DNA of 64,000 nucleotides, taken from Rhodoferax sp. TS-BS-61-7. GTDB taxonomy: Bacteria; Pseudomonadota; Gammaproteobacteria; Burkholderiales; Burkholderiaceae_C. Below are positions 56,407-64,000 of this stretch, piece after piece. Below the pieces are notes generated by a model. It was not told the DNA's origin and searched no databases. It worked only from the letters and a program-made list of their open reading frames with translations. A program made the position numbers and the translations under genes. The stretch lies in assembly GCF_002943465.1 (NCBI RefSeq), contig NZ_PTQY01000002.1, positions 248,001-312,000 on the forward strand. Direction: 5' to 3'. Each line of letters begins with the position of its first letter. Positions within the stretch are counted from its first letter, which is position 1.

Positions 56407-56547
56407 GCCCCCTGCGTTAAAAAGCGTAGCACACAGGCCCTGAAAACAGGCGTTTTGGGCCTGATCCCTCTACAATCATTTGCGGGTTGATGCTGCGGGA
56501 AGTTGCCCAGCTCAGTCTTCGCCTTACCTCAATACACAAGGGTAGAA

Positions 56548-58995
56548 ATGGATTTCCGGCGACTCGCACTGCGGCTAGGAGGGGGAGTGGTGGTCACGCT
56601 GTGGAGTGCCTGGGCGTTGGCTGCGCCCTTGCCGGTGGACTACCACTGCGGTCTGCAGTCGGTCCAGCAGACCATCGCCCAGCCCGCAAGCGCTTGGATC
56701 GCGGCACCCGAGGGGAAAGTGCCCGTGGACCCCGAGGGCGGTGCCTGCTGGGTCCGGATTGCCAGCCTGCCAGCCGGCCAGGCGCTGGAAACCCGGCCCT
56801 GGTTGTCCTTTGCCGACCTGAATGTGCAGCGTGTCAACATTGCGCTGTTCGATGCGCAGGGCAAGCCGTTGGGGCAGGCGCTGCGCCTGGGCCAAAGCAG
56901 CGGGGCCCTGGTCACTGGTCTGCGGGCCATTTTCACCCCCGACGCGGCGGCTGTATTTCCGCTCTATGCCCGCTTTGAACCCGCCCTGGGCGCATTGGCC
57001 TACCCAGGCTTGGCGCGCACCCTGTTGGTAGAAGCAGTGGTGCCCGAGGAGAGCCTGCGCGACGAGCACGGCACAGACCTGCTCAACCACAGCGGTGCGG
57101 TCTTCCTGTTCACCACGGCGCTGGTTGCGCTGTTTTTCAGCATCACCCTGCGGGAGGCCAATTACGCCATTTATGCGCTCTATGCGGGAGTGCAGTCGCT
57201 CACCATCTTCACCAAAAGCGGGCTGCCTTTTGTGCTCGACGCGAGCTCTCCGCTCTGGCTGAATGCCTGGATTTTTAACTACCTGGTGGGCGTACTCTCC
57301 GTTTTGTTGAGCGTGCGTTTTGGGCGGTTTGCCAGGCACAGCCCGCGCACCACCAAGGTGGCCTACGGCGTGGCCATGCTGTTTGCCAGCATGATCCCCT
57401 TGCACTACCTCTGGCCCAGCCTGGCCAATGTGCTGATTTACGCACTGGTGCCGCTGCACTTTTTGGTGCTGCTCACGGGCAACTGGCGCGGCTGGCGCGG
57501 GGGAGAGCGTGGCTGCGGAATTCTGCTGCTGGGGCTCACCCCCATTGCGATTTACTGGTCCGCATTTTTGCTCTACAACGTGGTGCTGCGCGAGCCCATG
57601 CCTTCGGCTGTGGCGCTGGGCTCCACGTTTGATTTTGCGCGTACCTTGTTGCTGCCTGTCGCGTTTTGTTACGGCATTGCCGACCGCACCTTGCGCTTGC
57701 AGCGCGAGACCTCGCGCATGGCCCGCTTTGATGCACTCACCGGACTGCTGAACCGTGAGGGCGCGCGCCAGTACGGCCAGTTGCGCATCGACGAAGGGGA
57801 CGTGCCGGCCGCCCTGATGCTCAATGTGGAGCGCTTCCACGCCATCAACGAAACTCTGGGCCCCATCTTGGGCGACCAGATACTCAAAGAAACCGGGCGC
57901 CGCTTGCAGGCCGTATGCCAGGTGCATGCCACGGCCTGTGTGGGGCGCATGCATGCGGACCAGTTCTGTCTGGTGTTCCCTAGTGACATCAGTCTGGCAG
58001 CCATGCGCGAAGAGGTGGACTACGCATTCAACAGCCCTGCGGAGATCGAGGGCCAGGCGGTGGACATCACGCTCGCCGTGGGCGTGGCCCTGCCGCCACC
58101 CGACAAGGCCTCCATGGCCCAGCTGCTGCGCAATGCCGAAATTGCCCTGGATGCGGGCCGTGCGCAGCACCGCAACTGGCTGCAGTACCAGCAGGAAATG
58201 GAAACCAGTCAGCGCGCCGACCTGGACCTGCTCTCCGAGCTCAAGCGCGCGGTGGAGCAGGGCGAGTTGCGTATGTACCTGCAGCCCAAGGTGCGCCTGA
58301 GCGACGGCACCGTGGGCAGCGCCGAAGCCTTGGTACGCTGGGAGCACCCGCGCCGCGGCATGATTCCGCCCGGCGACTTTGTCCCCTTTGCCGAAAAGAC
58401 CGGGCGCATCACCCTCATCACCCGCTGGGTGCTGGAGCAGGCCATGCGCCTGGCTGCCAGCTACCGTGCCCAGGGCCGCCCGCTGCAGATTTCGGTCAAT
58501 CTCTCTACCTTCGACCTGGGCGAGGCAGGCTTTGCGGCGCGCACGGCACTGCTGGCGCAGCAGGTAGGCGTAGACCCTGCTGACATCCGGCTTGAAATTA
58601 CGGAGAGCGGCGCCATGCAGGACCCAGCCTCCGCGCTGGAGGTGATGAACGCCTTGCGCACCAGCGGCTTCAGCCTGTCGATTGACGACTTCGGCACCGG
58701 CTACTCCTCGCTCGCGTATTTGCAAAAAATGCCGGTGGCCGAGCTCAAGATCGACCGTGCCTTTGTGCGCAATGTGCGCCATGGCAGCGACGGTGCGGCC
58801 CTGCTGGAGTCCACCATCGCCATGGGCCACCGCCTGGGGCTCAGCGTGGTGGCCGAGGGCCCCGAAGACGCCGAGGAATGGGCCTTGCTGTGCGCCATTG
58901 GCTGCGATTACGCGCAAGGCTGGTACGCTGCGCGGCCCATGCCGGTGCCGGAATTCGAGCGCTGGTGTGAGACGCAGCTGCCTTTTTTACGATGA
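56548..58995 (+). CDS. 7TM-DISM sensor with degenerate GGDEF and intact EAL domain
   Basis: An 815-residue membrane protein likely to hydrolyse cyclic di-GMP. A signal-peptide-like start precedes a periplasmic DISM extracellular domain (~25-190), then seven membrane segments (~190-390). The GGDEF domain begins DALTGLLNREGA, but its signature reads MHADQF (Asp471) instead of GGDEF, so cyclase activity is unlikely. The EAL domain is well kept: EALVRW (593-595), the N and E residues in SVNLSTFD and LEITESG, and DDFGTGYSSLAYLQ. ATG 56548 follows GGTAGAA. It is followed by the giant fusion gene after 32 bases. Confidence 0.92.
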   Translation: MDFRRLALRLGGGVVVTLWSAWALAAPLPVDYHCGLQSVQQTIAQPASAWIAAPEGKVPVDPEGGACWVRIASLPAGQALETRPWLSFADLNVQRVNIALFDAQGKPLGQALRLGQSSGALVTGLRAIFTPDAAAVFPLYARFEPALGALAYPGLARTLLVEAVVPEESLRDEHGTDLLNHSGAVFLFTTALVALFFSITLREANYAIYALYAGVQSLTIFTKSGLPFVLDASSPLWLNAWIFNYLVGVLSVLLSVRFGRFARHSPRTTKVAYGVAMLFASMIPLHYLWPSLANVLIYALVPLHFLVLLTGNWRGWRGGERGCGILLLGLTPIAIYWSAFLLYNVVLREPMPSAVALGSTFDFARTLLLPVAFCYGIADRTLRLQRETSRMARFDALTGLLNREGARQYGQLRIDEGDVPAALMLNVERFHAINETLGPILGDQILKETGRRLQAVCQVHATACVGRMHADQFCLVFPSDISLAAMREEVDYAFNSPAEIEGQAVDITLAVGVALPPPDKASMAQLLRNAEIALDAGRAQHRNWLQYQQEMETSQRADLDLLSELKRAVEQGELRMYLQPKVRLSDGTVGSAEALVRWEHPRRGMIPPGDFVPFAEKTGRITLITRWVLEQAMRLAASYRAQGRPLQISVNLSTFDLGEAGFAARTALLAQQVGVDPADIRLEITESGAMQDPASALEVMNALRTSGFSLSIDDFGTGYSSLAYLQKMPVAELKIDRAFVRNVRHGSDGAALLESTIAMGHRLGLSVVAEGPEDAEEWALLCAIGCDYAQGWYAARPMPVPEFERWCETQLPFLR

Positions 58996-59027
58996 ACTAA
59001 CGATTAAATTTCCAGGGAGGATTCGCT

Positions 59028-62000
59028 ATGCACTGGCTGTCACACGGTGTGGAGCAACTGATCACCAACACACAAGAAGGCTACGCGCCCGAGGTGCTGG
59101 TGGTGGGTTCGGGTTACGGCGGCTCGGTGGCCGCCTTGCGCTTTGCCGAGCATGGCCAGAGCGTGGCCGTGCTGGAGCGCGGCGCAGAGTACCTGGCCGG
59201 AGAGTTCCCCACTGATTTTGGCCAGTTTGGTGGCTTTGTGCGCGCCGAGGTGGGCGGCAATCTGGAACGTGGGCAGGGCCCCGCGGCCATTGGCTACGAA
59301 GACGCGCTGTTCGACTTTCGCGTGGGCACCCGTGCCAGTGCGCTGGTGGGCAATGGCCTGGGCGGTGGTAGCCTGATCAATGCGGCCGTGGCCTTGCGCC
59401 CCGACCCGCGCGTGTTTCAGCAGGACGCCTGGCCAGCTGCGGTGCGCGAGGCCTCGCTGGATGCCGACTACGCGCTGGCCACACAGGTGCTGGAGATCCA
59501 GTCGCCCCAGGCACAGCGTGCCTCACCGGCCTGCGTGCCGCAGCACACCGCCAAGTACCAGCGCATGCAAGAGATTGGCCAGGCAGCAGCCGACCGTTTT
59601 GGCAGCACCCGTCTGAAGGTCAGTACCGAAGACGTGCCCCTGGCCATCGAGTTTCGGGCCGATGCTCCGCTAGGGCTGGGCCCGCGGGATGCCTGCGTGG
59701 GCTGTGGCGACTGTTGCTCGGGCTGCAACCACAACGCCAAGCTCAGCCTGGATAAAACCTACCTGCCACGCGCTGCCCAAGCGGGTGCGCAGCTGTTCAC
59801 TGGCGTCAGCGTGCTCTATGTGCTGCACAAACCCGACGTGGCCCACCCCGGGCGTGACTGGGTGGTGCACTGCGTGCGCACCACCGAGCGTGGTACCTGG
59901 GAGCAATCTTTCGAGGCGCCCGAAGGCGCGCTCAACGGCGCCTACGAATTTGTGTTGCGCACCGGCCGCGTGGTGCTCAGCGCCGGCACCTTTGGTTCCA
60001 GTGAAATCCTGCTGCGCTCCCGGGAATACGGTCTGCCCGTGGCCCACAGCTGGCTGGGCAAGGGCATCTCTGCCAACGGCGATGACTTGAGCGCGGCCTA
60101 TGACATGGCAGACACGGCCAACGCGCTGGGGGAGGGCAGTGGCACCATGCGCGCCGCCACCGACAAGGTGGGGCCCACCATCAGTGCGGTGATCCGCTTT
60201 CATGACCAGTTAGACCATACCCAGAGCACCGTCACCGAAGACGGTGGCATTCCTGGCATGCTCGCGCCCATTGTGGGTGAGGCCCTGGCCACGCTGGGCG
60301 TGCTGCCCCAACTGGCGCGCTTTGGCTTGCGCCAGACGGGTGGACAAGACCCGCTGGTGGCCGACCCACGGCGCACGGCCCGCAGCCTGGTCATGCTGGG
60401 CATGGGGCACGACAGCTCGGCGGGGCAGGCCCAGTTGGCCAAACGGCAGTCGCGTATTGCCTGGTCCTGGGGCAGTGGCGCGGTGGACCCCGCGCCCGTG
60501 CTGCACCGCAGCCGTGCCGCCAGTGTGGAGGGCGTGGGCGCAGAATTTTTGCCCAACCCGGGCAGCGGTGTGCTCCCCGACAAGATTGCCAGCGTGCTCA
60601 GCGGCCCCAAGGCCGACACCAGTTGGATCACGGTGCACCCCTTGGGCGGCTGCCGTATGGCCGCCTCGCCCGCACAGGGCGTGGTCAACCACCAGGGCCA
60701 GGTCTTCCTGCCCGATGGGAGTGTGCACACCGGCCTGGTGGTGGTGGATGGTTCGGTTATCCCCACGTCGCTGGGTGTGAACCCCTTGCTGACGATCACA
60801 GCGCTTGCAGAACGGGCCTGCCGCCTGCTGTTGCAGGACGAACCGGCCCGCACGCCGCAAGCGCGCACCTTGCCCCCACACCCGCCCGTTGCCCCCATGG
60901 TGAAAGCCGAACCCGATGCACCCCATGGTGCTGTGTTGGCCGAGGTATTGCGCGGCCCCTTGCAGCCCGAGCCTGACGTGGTGTTGCCAGCCTGGTGGCC
61001 TGCCGGGCCAGTTGCACCTGCTGCCGCGCTGTTTCTAGAGATGGACGTGGCCGACTGGACCCGCCTGTGGCAAGACCCCAGCCACACCTTGCAGGCGCTG
61101 CCAGGCACTGCCACGGCGCGCAGCCTGACTGCCTCGCGCCTGGTCGTCGACGCTGTGCAGGGGCCGTCCACCGTACTGCAGGTCACCGGTGGCACCGTGC
61201 AGCTGTTCCGTGCGGCGCCCGAAGGCTTTGTGGCCCGTGCCTGCCGCACGCTGCGGGCCGGGTTGACTTACGGGATCACACGCTGGTACCCCGACAGCCA
61301 GCGCCCCAAGGTCGAAGGAGAAAAGAAACAAAAGATACGCGACATGGTCTGGGATGGTGCCAAGCTGCTCTGGCACGCCAGCGCTGCACGTACCTTTGAC
61401 TACCGGCTCACGCTGAGCGACGGCCAGCGCAACTGGTACCTGCAAGGAGAAAAGCTGATCCAGCCAGCCCTGAGCTGGGGTGAGCTGCGGGCTTGGCTGC
61501 GCAAAAAGTGGCAGCACGGCGGCTGGCCCGCCCCGCAGCGCCGCAGCGTGTGGGACGAGTTGACCCAGCTCGACGTGCAGCTTATGCAGGCCAAGGGAGG
61601 GCGTGTGTTGGCCACCGGTCGCCTGACCATGGACGTGCCCGAGATGGTGCGCCGCATTGCGCCGCAAATGAAGCCGGGCCCCGACACAGTCAACGCGCTG
61701 GCCGCCTTCATCACCTACCCGCTCACCATCCTGCGCTACGTGGTGAGCAGCCGCATGCTCGATTTCCGCCTGCCCGACTACAAGGCCGACCTGCCCGCCA
61801 CCGACCCGGCCACGCTGCCCGACAACGGCGATTTTGAGCTGACGGCCGACCAATACCCGCCTATCTGCCTGGCCGGGGGCGGCAAGGTGCTCCCGCAGGC
61901 GCCGGTATGCCTCACCGTGCCCCTGCGTGCGGGGGCTGATGTGTCTGATCCGAAGACCGAGACCATCCGCATTGGCCTGGTGCGTTATGCCCAGCCGCGG

Positions 62001-64000
62001 GTGGCATCCAGCGTCACCGCACAGGGCCTGCGGCGCTTCAAGTCCATCATCCTGCTCAACGGCTTTGCGCAAAACACCTTACCCTTTGTGGCCGAAGAGC
62101 TGGGCGAACGTGCGCTGGCCGCCATGCTTTACGCCCAGGGCTGGGACGTGTGGCTGCTCGAATACCGCGTCAGCCCCTTTCTGCGCGCCTCGGCCCGGCT
62201 CTCCAGCATGGATGACATTGGCGCCTGCGACCTGCCGGCCGCGGTCAACCACGCGCTGGCCGTGTTGCAGGCTGAGCGCATCGAGCCCGAGTTGCTGCCC
62301 GGCCAGCTCAGTGTGTTCAGCCACTGCGTGGGCTCGGCCTCTACCGCTATGGCTTTGCTGGGTGGGCACCTCATGCACGAGGCGGGCAAACCCAAAGTGG
62401 CGGCGGTACTGTTCTCGCAGTTTCAGCCCTATGTGATTGGCTCCGTTACCGCGCAAATGCGCCTGCAAGTGGCCTCGCTCATGGTCAATGCGCTGGGCCT
62501 GGAGTATGTGAACTTTGCTGCCGGAACGGCCCAGGCCAACGGCTTGCACGCCCTCATGGACCGGGCGTTTGCCAGCTTCCACTACGACGAGGCCGAGCGC
62601 TGCCCGCACGAGCACGACCTGCGCGTGCACCAGCCCGACAGCACCTCGTGCAAGCGCATGGCCGGTTTCTTGAGCCGCTTGTTCCGCCACGACCAGCTCA
62701 TTGAAAGCCAACCCGGCCGCCCCGGCACGCACGAGAAGCTGGACCTGTACTTTGGCCGCACCAACCTGGGTGTGTTCTTGCACGGCGCCAAGTGCGTGGA
62801 GTACGAGCACCTGGTGGACGCCGATGGCCAGAACATCTATGTGACGGACGAAAACGTGCGCCGCTACCTGGGCATGCCCGTCATGCTGCTGCACGGGGCC
62901 GACAACGTGCTGTTCGACCAGGAGTCGCTGCACGAAACCCAGCGCCAGTTCAGCCGCGCCTTTGGCGGGCAGCGCTTGGCCAGCAAGCTGGACCGCTTTC
63001 TGGTGGCACCCGAGCATGCGCACTTTGACTGCACCATCGGCAAGCGGGCGCCCGAGGTCATCTTCTCGGAGGTGGTGGACTTCTTCAACCAAGCCCAGGC
63101 CGCGGACCTGCCCGAGCCCATGACGCAAAACCGCCTCCGGGCCCGCCTGCCGCGCACCGGCCCGCTGACGGGCTGGGTACGCCGCGAGGGCGCAGACACC
63201 GTGCTGCGCGTGTGGATGGAGGTGGACAACTCGCAGGCAGACACGGCGGTAGGTGCCATGACGCTGCTCTCGGTGGGGCGCCAGCGCACCGTGCAAGCCT
63301 GGCCACTGGTCAGCAGCCCGCTGGAGGGCCTGGTGGGCGTGGCAAAAGACGCCTCACCGGACCAAAGCATTGTGTATGCCGTGGCCGACCTGCAGGTGCC
63401 AGCTGACTGGCAAGGCGCTATCACCGTGGCCATGGTGAGCCTGCACCGCATTGCGGCCGATGCACCTGCCGATGGTGCTGCCCACACACTGCATTGGCCC
63501 ACGGTGTGGGGGGCTCCGGTGACCGTGGAAGACGTGGCGCACAGCGCCGGGCGCAGCCCGGTGCCCGCAGTGCCACCCTCGGCCGAGGCCGCAAATGCGG
63601 ACTACCGGCAAACCCTGGCGCAGGGTCAGGGCGCCGCAGGCTGGGAGCTGGCCCCCACGGCCATGGCCGTCCCCCATGCGGTGGGCCATGGCGTGCTGCA
63701 GCCCCAGCCGCTGGACCTGACACTGGACGATGCCGTGGCCCTGCTGCGGCCACTGGCCGCGCTGGTGCGCGAGCAGCGCGCCGTGGCCTTGCGTGCGCAG
63801 CCCGGCACGCTGTCGCGCCAGCGCCGCAGCCTGCGCTGGATGCGCGACTGCGTGCTGCGCCTGCAGGGCCAGCTGCTGACCCCGCAGGCCGGCTTGCGCT
63901 TTGTGGCGGCCACCTGCCGCCACCCGGGCATTACCGAGTTTGAAGCGGCCCGCAGTGACCACACCCTGCAGCAGCTGGCCCTGCGCCAGCGGCAGGCGCC
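59028..64000 (+). CDS. Giant multidomain enzyme: GMC oxidoreductase plus Cys-nucleophile alpha/beta hydrolase, 3' end outside window
   Basis: At least 1657 codons, open to the edge. ATG 59028 follows a strong AGGGAGG site. Domain 1 (~20-600) is a cholesterol-oxidase-like GMC flavoprotein: FAD motif GSGYGG (27-32), GNGLGGGSLINAA, a cysteine cluster ACVGCGDCCSGCNHNAK (~222-238), and the C-terminal WITVHPLGGCRM and GVNPLLTITALAERA. An uncharacterised linker (~610-960) follows. Domain 2 (~1000-1365) is an alpha/beta hydrolase: FKSIILLNGFAQN, elbow SHCVGS with Cys1100 where serine is usual, acid LLHGADN, and His in PEHAHFD. The last ~60 visible residues (AATCRHPGITEFEAARSD) look like the start of a metallophosphoesterase/PhoD-like domain, uncertain. 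Substrate unknown; lipid or sterol-like compounds are a guess. Confidence 0.88.
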   Translation, partial: MHWLSHGVEQLITNTQEGYAPEVLVVGSGYGGSVAALRFAEHGQSVAVLERGAEYLAGEFPTDFGQFGGFVRAEVGGNLERGQGPAAIGYEDALFDFRVGTRASALVGNGLGGGSLINAAVALRPDPRVFQQDAWPAAVREASLDADYALATQVLEIQSPQAQRASPACVPQHTAKYQRMQEIGQAAADRFGSTRLKVSTEDVPLAIEFRADAPLGLGPRDACVGCGDCCSGCNHNAKLSLDKTYLPRAAQAGAQLFTGVSVLYVLHKPDVAHPGRDWVVHCVRTTERGTWEQSFEAPEGALNGAYEFVLRTGRVVLSAGTFGSSEILLRSREYGLPVAHSWLGKGISANGDDLSAAYDMADTANALGEGSGTMRAATDKVGPTISAVIRFHDQLDHTQSTVTEDGGIPGMLAPIVGEALATLGVLPQLARFGLRQTGGQDPLVADPRRTARSLVMLGMGHDSSAGQAQLAKRQSRIAWSWGSGAVDPAPVLHRSRAASVEGVGAEFLPNPGSGVLPDKIASVLSGPKADTSWITVHPLGGCRMAASPAQGVVNHQGQVFLPDGSVHTGLVVVDGSVIPTSLGVNPLLTITALAERACRLLLQDEPARTPQARTLPPHPPVAPMVKAEPDAPHGAVLAEVLRGPLQPEPDVVLPAWWPAGPVAPAAALFLEMDVADWTRLWQDPSHTLQALPGTATARSLTASRLVVDAVQGPSTVLQVTGGTVQLFRAAPEGFVARACRTLRAGLTYGITRWYPDSQRPKVEGEKKQKIRDMVWDGAKLLWHASAARTFDYRLTLSDGQRNWYLQGEKLIQPALSWGELRAWLRKKWQHGGWPAPQRRSVWDELTQLDVQLMQAKGGRVLATGRLTMDVPEMVRRIAPQMKPGPDTVNALAAFITYPLTILRYVVSSRMLDFRLPDYKADLPATDPATLPDNGDFELTADQYPPICLAGGGKVLPQAPVCLTVPLRAGADVSDPKTETIRIGLVRYAQPRVASSVTAQGLRRFKSIILLNGFAQNTLPFVAEELGERALAAMLYAQGWDVWLLEYRVSPFLRASARLSSMDDIGACDLPAAVNHALAVLQAERIEPELLPGQLSVFSHCVGSASTAMALLGGHLMHEAGKPKVAAVLFSQFQPYVIGSVTAQMRLQVASLMVNALGLEYVNFAAGTAQANGLHALMDRAFASFHYDEAERCPHEHDLRVHQPDSTSCKRMAGFLSRLFRHDQLIESQPGRPGTHEKLDLYFGRTNLGVFLHGAKCVEYEHLVDADGQNIYVTDENVRRYLGMPVMLLHGADNVLFDQESLHETQRQFSRAFGGQRLASKLDRFLVAPEHAHFDCTIGKRAPEVIFSEVVDFFNQAQAADLPEPMTQNRLRARLPRTGPLTGWVRREGADTVLRVWMEVDNSQADTAVGAMTLLSVGRQRTVQAWPLVSSPLEGLVGVAKDASPDQSIVYAVADLQVPADWQGAITVAMVSLHRIAADAPADGAAHTLHWPTVWGAPVTVEDVAHSAGRSPVPAVPPSAEAANADYRQTLAQGQGAAGWELAPTAMAVPHAVGHGVLQPQPLDLTLDDAVALLRPLAALVREQRAVALRAQPGTLSRQRRSLRWMRDCVLRLQGQLLTPQAGLRFVAATCRHPGITEFEAARSDHTLQQLALRQRQA

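Follow-up and report, generated by a model that had tools for sequence, protein, structure and literature searches.

Polyhydroxyalkanoate (PHA) synthase, PhaC, is an alpha/beta hydrolase with a cysteine nucleophile in a GxCxG box, an Asp and a His, and the gastric and lysosomal acid lipases are serine hydrolases. Cholesterol oxidase (1b4v, 4u2l) is a stand-alone oxidase of the GMC fold. In the flavin adenine dinucleotide (FAD) glucose dehydrogenase of Burkholderia cepacia (6a2u), three of the four cysteines bind a 3Fe-4S cluster, and the catalytic subunit is accompanied by a hitchhiker subunit and a cytochrome subunit with several hemes (PMC6719666). CqsS and LqsS are kinases with six transmembrane (TM) segments that are encoded with their autoinducer synthases and have known lipophilic ligands, as described in PMC4821796 and PMC3376566. 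Here, a giant fusion gene was investigated in a 64 000 nucleotide stretch of DNA from Rhodoferax sp. TS-BS-61-7 (the window, G000:C7:248001-312000), which sits in a 600-kb contig of a 4.19-Mb genome. The encoded protein consists, in order, of a GMC flavoprotein, an unnamed middle domain (MID), an alpha/beta hydrolase (ABH) and a PhoD-like phosphoesterase. The favoured explanation, to which we give roughly an even chance (about 0.5), is that a hydrophobic molecule with ester and phosphoester groups is processed in one pathway by three active sites, and that this pathway is tied to a neighbouring signalling protein. The features of the gene are as follows.

59015..59021, + strand: Shine-Dalgarno-like sequence GGGAGGA, 6 bases ahead of the ATG
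59028..64000, on to a stop ending at 64952 (L007:3028-8952), + strand: giant fusion gene, 1974 residues
59028..60887, + strand: GMC flavoprotein module, residues 1-620 (Pfam GMC_oxred_N and GMC_oxred_C)
59694..59726, + strand: CVGCGDCCSGC, a ferredoxin-like CxxCxxCxxxC motif, residues 223-233
60945..61982, + strand: middle domain (MID), residues 640-985, without an assigned family
61983..63257, + strand: alpha/beta hydrolase module, residues 986-1410 (Abhydrolase_1 in relatives, and profile matches)
62325..62327, + strand: Cys1100, predicted nucleophile in SHCVG; Cys in 60/60 modules, window included
62904..62906, + strand: Asn1293 (HGADN), aligned with the position normally taken by the triad acid; Asn in 59/60
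63021..63023, + strand: His1332, predicted catalytic histidine (HFDCTIG); His in 60/60 modules
63258..63797, + strand: linker region, residues 1411-1590, poorly conserved beyond near relatives and without a confident model
63798..64000, + strand: start of the PhoD-like module, residues 1591-1974, most of it beyond the window (L007:7798-8949); Pfam PhoD

The frame opened by the ATG at 59028 is uninterrupted up to the window edge at 64000, and the adjoining downstream DNA (L007), once retrieved, carried it to a stop at the window-equivalent position 64952. The single frame running past the edge was borne out, as were the ribosome site and the consistent codon use that the original prediction had taken as signs of a real single polypeptide, with GC content at third codon positions of 0.80-0.86 across all five segments of the gene and a codon-position composition much alike throughout. 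Comparison of the frame with six relatives (L008-L011, L013, L014) gave zero internal stops, and third-position divergence exceeded that of first and second positions in each of the five segments. On this codon-level evidence the gene is under purifying selection along its whole length. The full-length gene was found in seven other genome records (L008-L011, L013, L014, L016), with 59-92% identity of the best segment; the hosts were Curvibacter, Rhodoferax, another member of the Burkholderiales and Pseudomonadaceae. The remaining loci of this 14-locus set were cut at contig ends (L012, L015, L017, L018), shared the PhoD part only (L020, L021) or, in L019, represented a 29% relative across residues 22-1923. 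An artefact from a frameshift between the parts, or from a chimera, is ruled out by the full-length relatives and the clean frame comparison. The sole annotated full-length relative encountered bears the name 'alpha/beta fold hydrolase' only.

The domain searches suggested by the original prediction placed GMC_oxred_N, GMC_oxred_C and PhoD above their Pfam cut-offs. GMC_oxred_N (44.2 bits, cut-off 23) and GMC_oxred_C (53.0 bits, cut-off 24.6) were matched between residues 87 and 594, so that the first module is a member of the GMC oxidoreductase superfamily; it carries GSGYGG at residues 27-32. The nearest solved sequence to the GMC profile in the PDB was cholesterol oxidase (E 2e-48), with FAD glucose dehydrogenase next. 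The GMC fold, the FAD motif, the HPLGG histidine and the NP asparagine are shared with cholesterol oxidase. However, the fusion protein scored 150.5 bits against a threshold of 850 for the cholesterol oxidase equivalog (NCBIfam NF058674), and the three solved cholesterol oxidases with displayed alignments are without the four cysteines of its ferredoxin-like motif. Of the phrase 'cholesterol-oxidase-like flavoprotein', the fold was retained and the oxidase identity was not.

The four-cysteine motif was present in 51 of the 54 loci in which GMC shares a protein with MID or ABH, the three exceptions (L012, L053, L146) being modules that are cut or broken. The four motif cysteines, His537 and Asn585 were invariant in all 51 loci showing the region (51/51); in a separate count of GMC-only rows the motif occurred in 13 of 18. 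A profile of the motif and the part upstream of it weakly matched iron-sulphur (Fe-S) proteins, including 4Fe-4S proteins (best E 0.0027), and a profile of the motif region aligned to residues 208-302 of 6a2u (E 7e-4). From the end points and spacing of this alignment, residues 223, 229 and 233 would be the counterparts of the cluster cysteines of 6a2u. The ferredoxin-like motif falls in the stretch aligned to the 3Fe-4S region of the bacterial FAD glucose dehydrogenase and favours a dehydrogenase, so that the GMC module probably relays electrons, putatively through an Fe-S cluster, and is probably no cholesterol oxidase. The catalytic subunit of FAD glucose dehydrogenase is alike in its GMC fold and in having cysteines in the aligned region, but it is a glucose enzyme, whereas the fusion protein has four cysteines with ferredoxin-type spacing. 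No hitchhiker or multi-heme cytochrome subunit was noticed beside the fusion gene. In two relatives, L128 (9251-11137) and L065 (5567-7522), a gene for a RoxA-like cytochrome c lies directly 3' of the GMC-ABH gene, and its product is a possible electron acceptor. A second GMC gene adjoins the GMC-ABH gene downstream in L056 and upstream in L130.

Residues 986-1410 gave no Pfam match in the window protein, and membership of the alpha/beta hydrolase superfamily was established through relatives only. Of the 43 MID-ABH sequences in the alignment, 31 matched Abhydrolase_1 (E up to 0.1), and its curated cut-off was exceeded by three split relatives (L121, L125, L122). The hydrolase part of the predicted fusion was in this way confirmed, with one change to its character, a cysteine in place of the expected nucleophile. 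The residue counts listed above come from 60 modules of 60 loci with roles judged by alignment, and the lone case without the Asn is L091, a gene with a broken downstream frame. When the PDB was searched with the 43-sequence MID-ABH profile, gastric and lysosomal acid lipases were the nearest solved sequences (E 4e-17 to 3e-13) and the PHA synthase 9knj matched at 2e-4. The module differs from the acid lipases in having a cysteine where they have serine and an Asn in the acid's place, and by its nucleophile it falls outside their family. With PHA synthase it shares the predicted cysteine nucleophile and the histidine, but the box is HCxG in most modules rather than GxCxG, Asn stands at the acid position, and the module is joined to GMC and PhoD; by box and acid position it falls outside the PHA synthases. 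By analogy with that enzyme, a cysteine nucleophile suggests thioester chemistry, with acyl hydrolysis or transfer. In L055, a Rhizobium plasmid carries PhaC and PhaE genes (L055:312-2052) within a few kb of GMC-ABH, and the annotated PhaC matched the hydrolase profile at 5e-7.

The presence of lysosomal acid lipase/cholesteryl ester hydrolase and of cholesterol oxidase among the nearest PDB sequences would fit a steryl ester oxidase, with the hydrolase releasing a sterol from the steryl ester for oxidation by the GMC module. This we consider very improbable, given the low equivalog score, the four-cysteine motif missing from the three solved cholesterol oxidases with displayed alignments and the cysteine in place of serine; it would also leave the phosphoesterase unexplained.

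MID showed no assignable Pfam family in the scan of MID-ABH and, at E up to 1, matched no sequence in the PDB; every other module belongs to a known superfamily. In L150 a stand-alone gene encodes MID, and in L121 part of MID is found at the C-terminal end of a patatin. The latter is a split locus (L121:7094-10723) in which the patatin with partial MID is accompanied by genes for an acetoacetate decarboxylase-like protein and a cysteine ABH, with a porin gene alongside.

The third domain guessed at by the original prediction exists and is a PhoD-like phosphoesterase, in addition to which the unnamed domain lies between GMC and hydrolase. Pfam PhoD scored 69.5 bits (cut-off 27) over residues 1659-1900, placing the module among the PhoD-like phosphatases. 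It is not the alkaline phosphatase PhoD equivalog (NCBIfam NF058638; 19.9 versus 1000 bits). It resembles the PhoD alkaline phosphatase/phosphodiesterase 2yeq in its Pfam family and its aligned GDxxY, DDHE and GDxH motifs, and differs in missing the equivalog score and in being a module inside a larger protein. Foldseek with a weak PhoD model returned PhoD first, 2yeq being the best match, then mainly SMPDL3 phosphodiesterases; with a weak MID-ABH model it returned alpha/beta hydrolase-type enzymes of many kinds.

The phosphoesterase was not always fused. An unfused PhoD gene was the same-strand neighbour of GMC-ABH in L060, L068, L086, L088, L089, L104 and L129, the two genes overlapping by 1 to 65 bases or lying 4 to 85 bases apart in our own gene calls. 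L101/L102 was treated as one gene split at contig ends, followed by PhoD, and in L091 PhoD lay in broken downstream frames. In L150, PhoD (by Pfam), MID, GMC and ABH were four consecutive same-strand genes with gaps of 7 to 19 bases. Among PhoD-less loci with fused GMC-MID-ABH, a PF00149 calcineurin-type phosphoesterase was found within two genes in 9 of 16: eight passed the Pfam cut-off (L058, L067, L095, L096, L105, L128, L143, L147) and the ninth, L054, was recognised by annotation and a GNHD motif, with no Pfam hit. L126, in which GMC and MID-ABH were two genes, likewise had a nearby calcineurin-type phosphoesterase; L125 showed none. A convergent gene for an OmpR-type DNA-binding/ATPase/TPR regulator adjoined GMC-ABH in two loci with a PF00149 partner (L058:11609-14284, L095:9127-11757). 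Interrupted frames in enzyme, PhoD or kinase genes were seen in L146, L091 and L053, perhaps through decay or sequencing errors.

In a quick tree of 56 GMC modules, midpoint-rooted for drawing and without L012 (cut in GMC), the fused state required five changes, at least three of them being forced by well-supported branches. Such repeated changes, and the separate PhoD of several lineages, are what would be seen if three independent modules had been joined opportunistically through being neighbours. The adjacency has nevertheless been kept over deep splits, even with another phosphoesterase family, and an opportunistic fusion seems to us improbable.

The genes beside the enzyme were compared in 31 PhoD-bearing loci outside the window's clade, 21 fused and 10 separate, in which two genomes give two loci each and L097/L098, L101/L102 and L148/L149 were each counted once. 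A hybrid histidine kinase of one family adjoined the enzyme gene in 26 of 31 (19/21 fused, 7/10 separate), and was not adjacent in the other five (L052, L053, L068, L129, L150). A LuxR-type regulator was present in at least 20 of the 31 loci. By Pfam, HisKA, HATPase_c and a receiver were detected in 10/10 kinases tested, and a receiver with a LuxR-type DNA-binding domain in 3/3 regulators tested. Crude hydropathy gave 3 to 6 hydrophobic segments ahead of the H-box in 18 kinases (including that of the PhoD-less L066), with no room for a large outer domain. In L090 (4003-11331), counted among the 26, kinase, receiver, GMC, MID, ABH and PhoD lie in one 2443-codon frame, and it is possible that this join reflects a stop lost by sequencing error; the kinase of L146 is in pieces.

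Genes within three places of the enzyme (n = 356) included 26 matching the kinase profile sensor part and all, 22 by the regulator rule, 9 with GNHD, 9 matching that profile apart from the sensor part and 3 with a GGDEF motif, against 1, 0, 1, 3 and 3, respectively, among genes farther away (n = 350); since 18 of these loci had served to train the profiles, this count is not independent. The 26 near genes and the 26 loci above are different sets: L090 and L146 are absent from the former, which takes in L066 and also an EAL protein, that of L096. A later search of another order supplied loci that had not contributed to the idea (194 genomes, 8 new of 9 matching, all 8 inspected): the kinase was found in 6/6 PhoD-bearing loci (L141, L142, L144, L145, L146, L148/L149), and both PhoD-less loci (L143, L147) had an adjacent PF00149 phosphoesterase.

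Other outputs were also encountered. A large divergent protein lies beside two PhoD-type loci (L129:12539-16462, L052:5459-9466); Pfam detects adenylate/guanylate cyclase and AAA domains in that of L129, and the annotation of that of L052 names an adenylate/guanylate cyclase domain. In L096 (13519-15324) a sensor-like part of the kinase type is joined to GGDEF and EAL, a similar sensor with another output. The original prediction had pointed to neighbouring transport genes as a check; these were no general neighbour, and the recurrent neighbours were sensor and regulator genes. TRAP transporter genes occur near L052 (15896-18969, annotated) and L150 (2023-4908; DctP and DctM by Pfam, several genes away). 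No PADLOC model for anti-phage defence was matched at E up to 0.01.

The adjacency of a sensor kinase and a LuxR-type regulator is a common layout of inducible pathways. The fusion might accordingly be a catabolic enzyme with its own inducer system, in which the neighbouring sensor detects a membrane lipid-like substrate and switches the enzyme on, with no signal between cells. The patatin beside the split form in L121 and the TRAP transporter genes would fit this explanation, as would the adenylate cyclase-type protein beside L052 and L129, which shows that the type of regulator varies. In the neighbour lists inspected, however, no transporter or further catabolic gene recurred across loci, and we regard this explanation as possible but on balance unlikely.

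Alternatively, the enzyme may make, modify or destroy a hydrophobic signal that is sensed by the adjacent multi-TM kinase. The layout, with genes for a multi-TM hybrid kinase and a response regulator next to that of the enzyme, is similar to that of CqsA/CqsS and LqsA/LqsS; the comparison concerns this layout. The kinases, with 3 to 6 segments and no large outer domain, beside an enzyme with lipid-like folds speak for a signal of this kind, as does the single open frame of kinase and enzyme in L090. But the enzyme families differ from that of CqsA, most kinase-enzyme neighbours are not signalling pairs, and the kinase is missing from the loci read in the window's own clade; a role in signal turnover is doubtful on this evidence.

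In the window, another type of signalling gene lies immediately upstream of the fusion gene.

56503..58995, + strand: 7TM-DISM / GGDEF / EAL protein (Pfam), ending 32 bases before the fusion gene

Pfam scores for this protein were 238.6 bits for EAL, 68.2 for GGDEF and 35.8 for 7TMR-DISM_7TM. The GGDEF signature reads HADQF by eye, making cyclase activity unlikely, and the EAL motif is present; the protein is probably a cyclic di-GMP phosphodiesterase. A GGDEF/EAL protein occupied this place in 6 of 9 loci of the clade (L007-L014, L016), namely the window (= L007), L008-L011 and L013; none was called in L014, L016 was not resolved and L012 is cut. No kinase was present beside the gene in the clade loci read, and the window genome retains a single kinase with a fitting sensor part at another place (L152, E 9e-21). 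In the tree, the clade (L007-L011, L013, L014, L016) branched from within the kinase-bearing loci, which makes it probable that its locus has lost the kinase.

The spread of the family was sampled at several ranks. In a phylum sample of 299 genomes it was found in 5 at E below 1e-100, and 11 passed 1e-10; at 1e-40 it was found in 9/194 genomes in the order of G617 and 2/190 in the class of G545. Matches to P0001 occurred in 92/300 genomes of the window's order (1e-3) and 35/200 of its family (1e-20), many to single modules only, and flanks were fetched for 18 of the 92 and 18 of the 35 (own genome aside), mostly the strongest and split cases, so that the locus counts given here are not a random sample. 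Plasmid records held weaker relatives in 75 cases, none with one place covering over 80% of the query. Left out of the counts were L103, L123, L124, L127, L131 and L132 (GMC-only or unclear), L070 and L071 (short contigs of one genome), and the short loci L023-L051 and L072-L085 (repeats of later loci, or flanks not fetched).

These data are most consistent with the favoured explanation, the action of all three active sites on one molecule. Coupled steps on a lipid-like substrate had been proposed from the sequence of the window, and of the readings such coupling on one substrate has the best support, since the modules remain side by side whether fused or unfused; for sterols as the substrate there was no support beyond the fold neighbours. 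The PhoD module would hydrolyse a phosphoester, and the GMC module would oxidise the exposed or a neighbouring alcohol, passing electrons through its Fe-S cluster to a carrier as a dehydrogenase, not an oxidase, does. The cysteine hydrolase would take an acyl group as a thioester, for subsequent hydrolysis or transfer; holding the lipid-like substrate would probably fall to the middle domain. The pathway would be coupled to the signalling protein next door, that is, the hybrid kinase and LuxR-type regulator in many relatives and the 7TM GGDEF/EAL protein in the window's clade. We infer a cytoplasmic location (from reading the N-termini), the Fe-S cluster, the order of these steps, the catalytic roles of the conserved residues and the sensing role; the lipid-like nature of the substrate is suggested by the acid-lipase-like hydrolase profile, the cholesterol-oxidase-like GMC profile and the part of MID on the L121 patatin. 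The sensor may respond to the substrate, as in inducible catabolism, or to the product, which would then be a signal.

Several observations weigh on the other side. Seven of the 16 PhoD-less GMC-ABH loci were without a counted phosphoesterase (L055, L056, L057, L065, L066, L069, L130), L130 being left uncounted as its divergent gene has the motif but no Pfam hit. Among 40 PhoD proteins, a number that includes some cut or broken frames, the strict motifs were kept in 36 (GDxxYxD-type), 34 (DDHE) and 29 (GDxH). The predicted structures were weak (mean pLDDT 58 for the MID-ABH and PhoD models). The downstream neighbour in the window is ClpB, and the other near neighbours look like housekeeping genes.

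The fusion is real and conserved, and it combines known superfamilies with one unnamed domain. This combination was not found described in the openly licensed PubMed Central literature, by titles and abstract openings of the matches listed (the best 12 to 15 of long lists); nor, in the same scope, were the invariant Cys and near-invariant Asn in a lipase-like hydrolase, the ferredoxin-like motif in a flavoprotein resembling cholesterol oxidase or the tie to a membrane sensor. It is conceivable, if rather speculative, that these loci form a widespread but scattered signalling system of Proteobacteria, in which a three-site enzyme makes or inactivates a lipid-like signal that the kinase and LuxR-type regulator read, with a GGDEF/EAL or adenylate cyclase-type output instead of the kinase in some clades. 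Its chemistry would be cleavage of a phosphoester, oxidation of an alcohol and acyl transfer by the cysteine. If so, this would be a signalling enzyme of a make-up not found described, uniting a GMC module with a cysteine hydrolase and PhoD. Should the modules act on a common substrate, a multi-step pathway could be tested in one purified protein, and the fusion would offer a route to a lipid-like molecule that is sensed or processed by environmental Proteobacteria.

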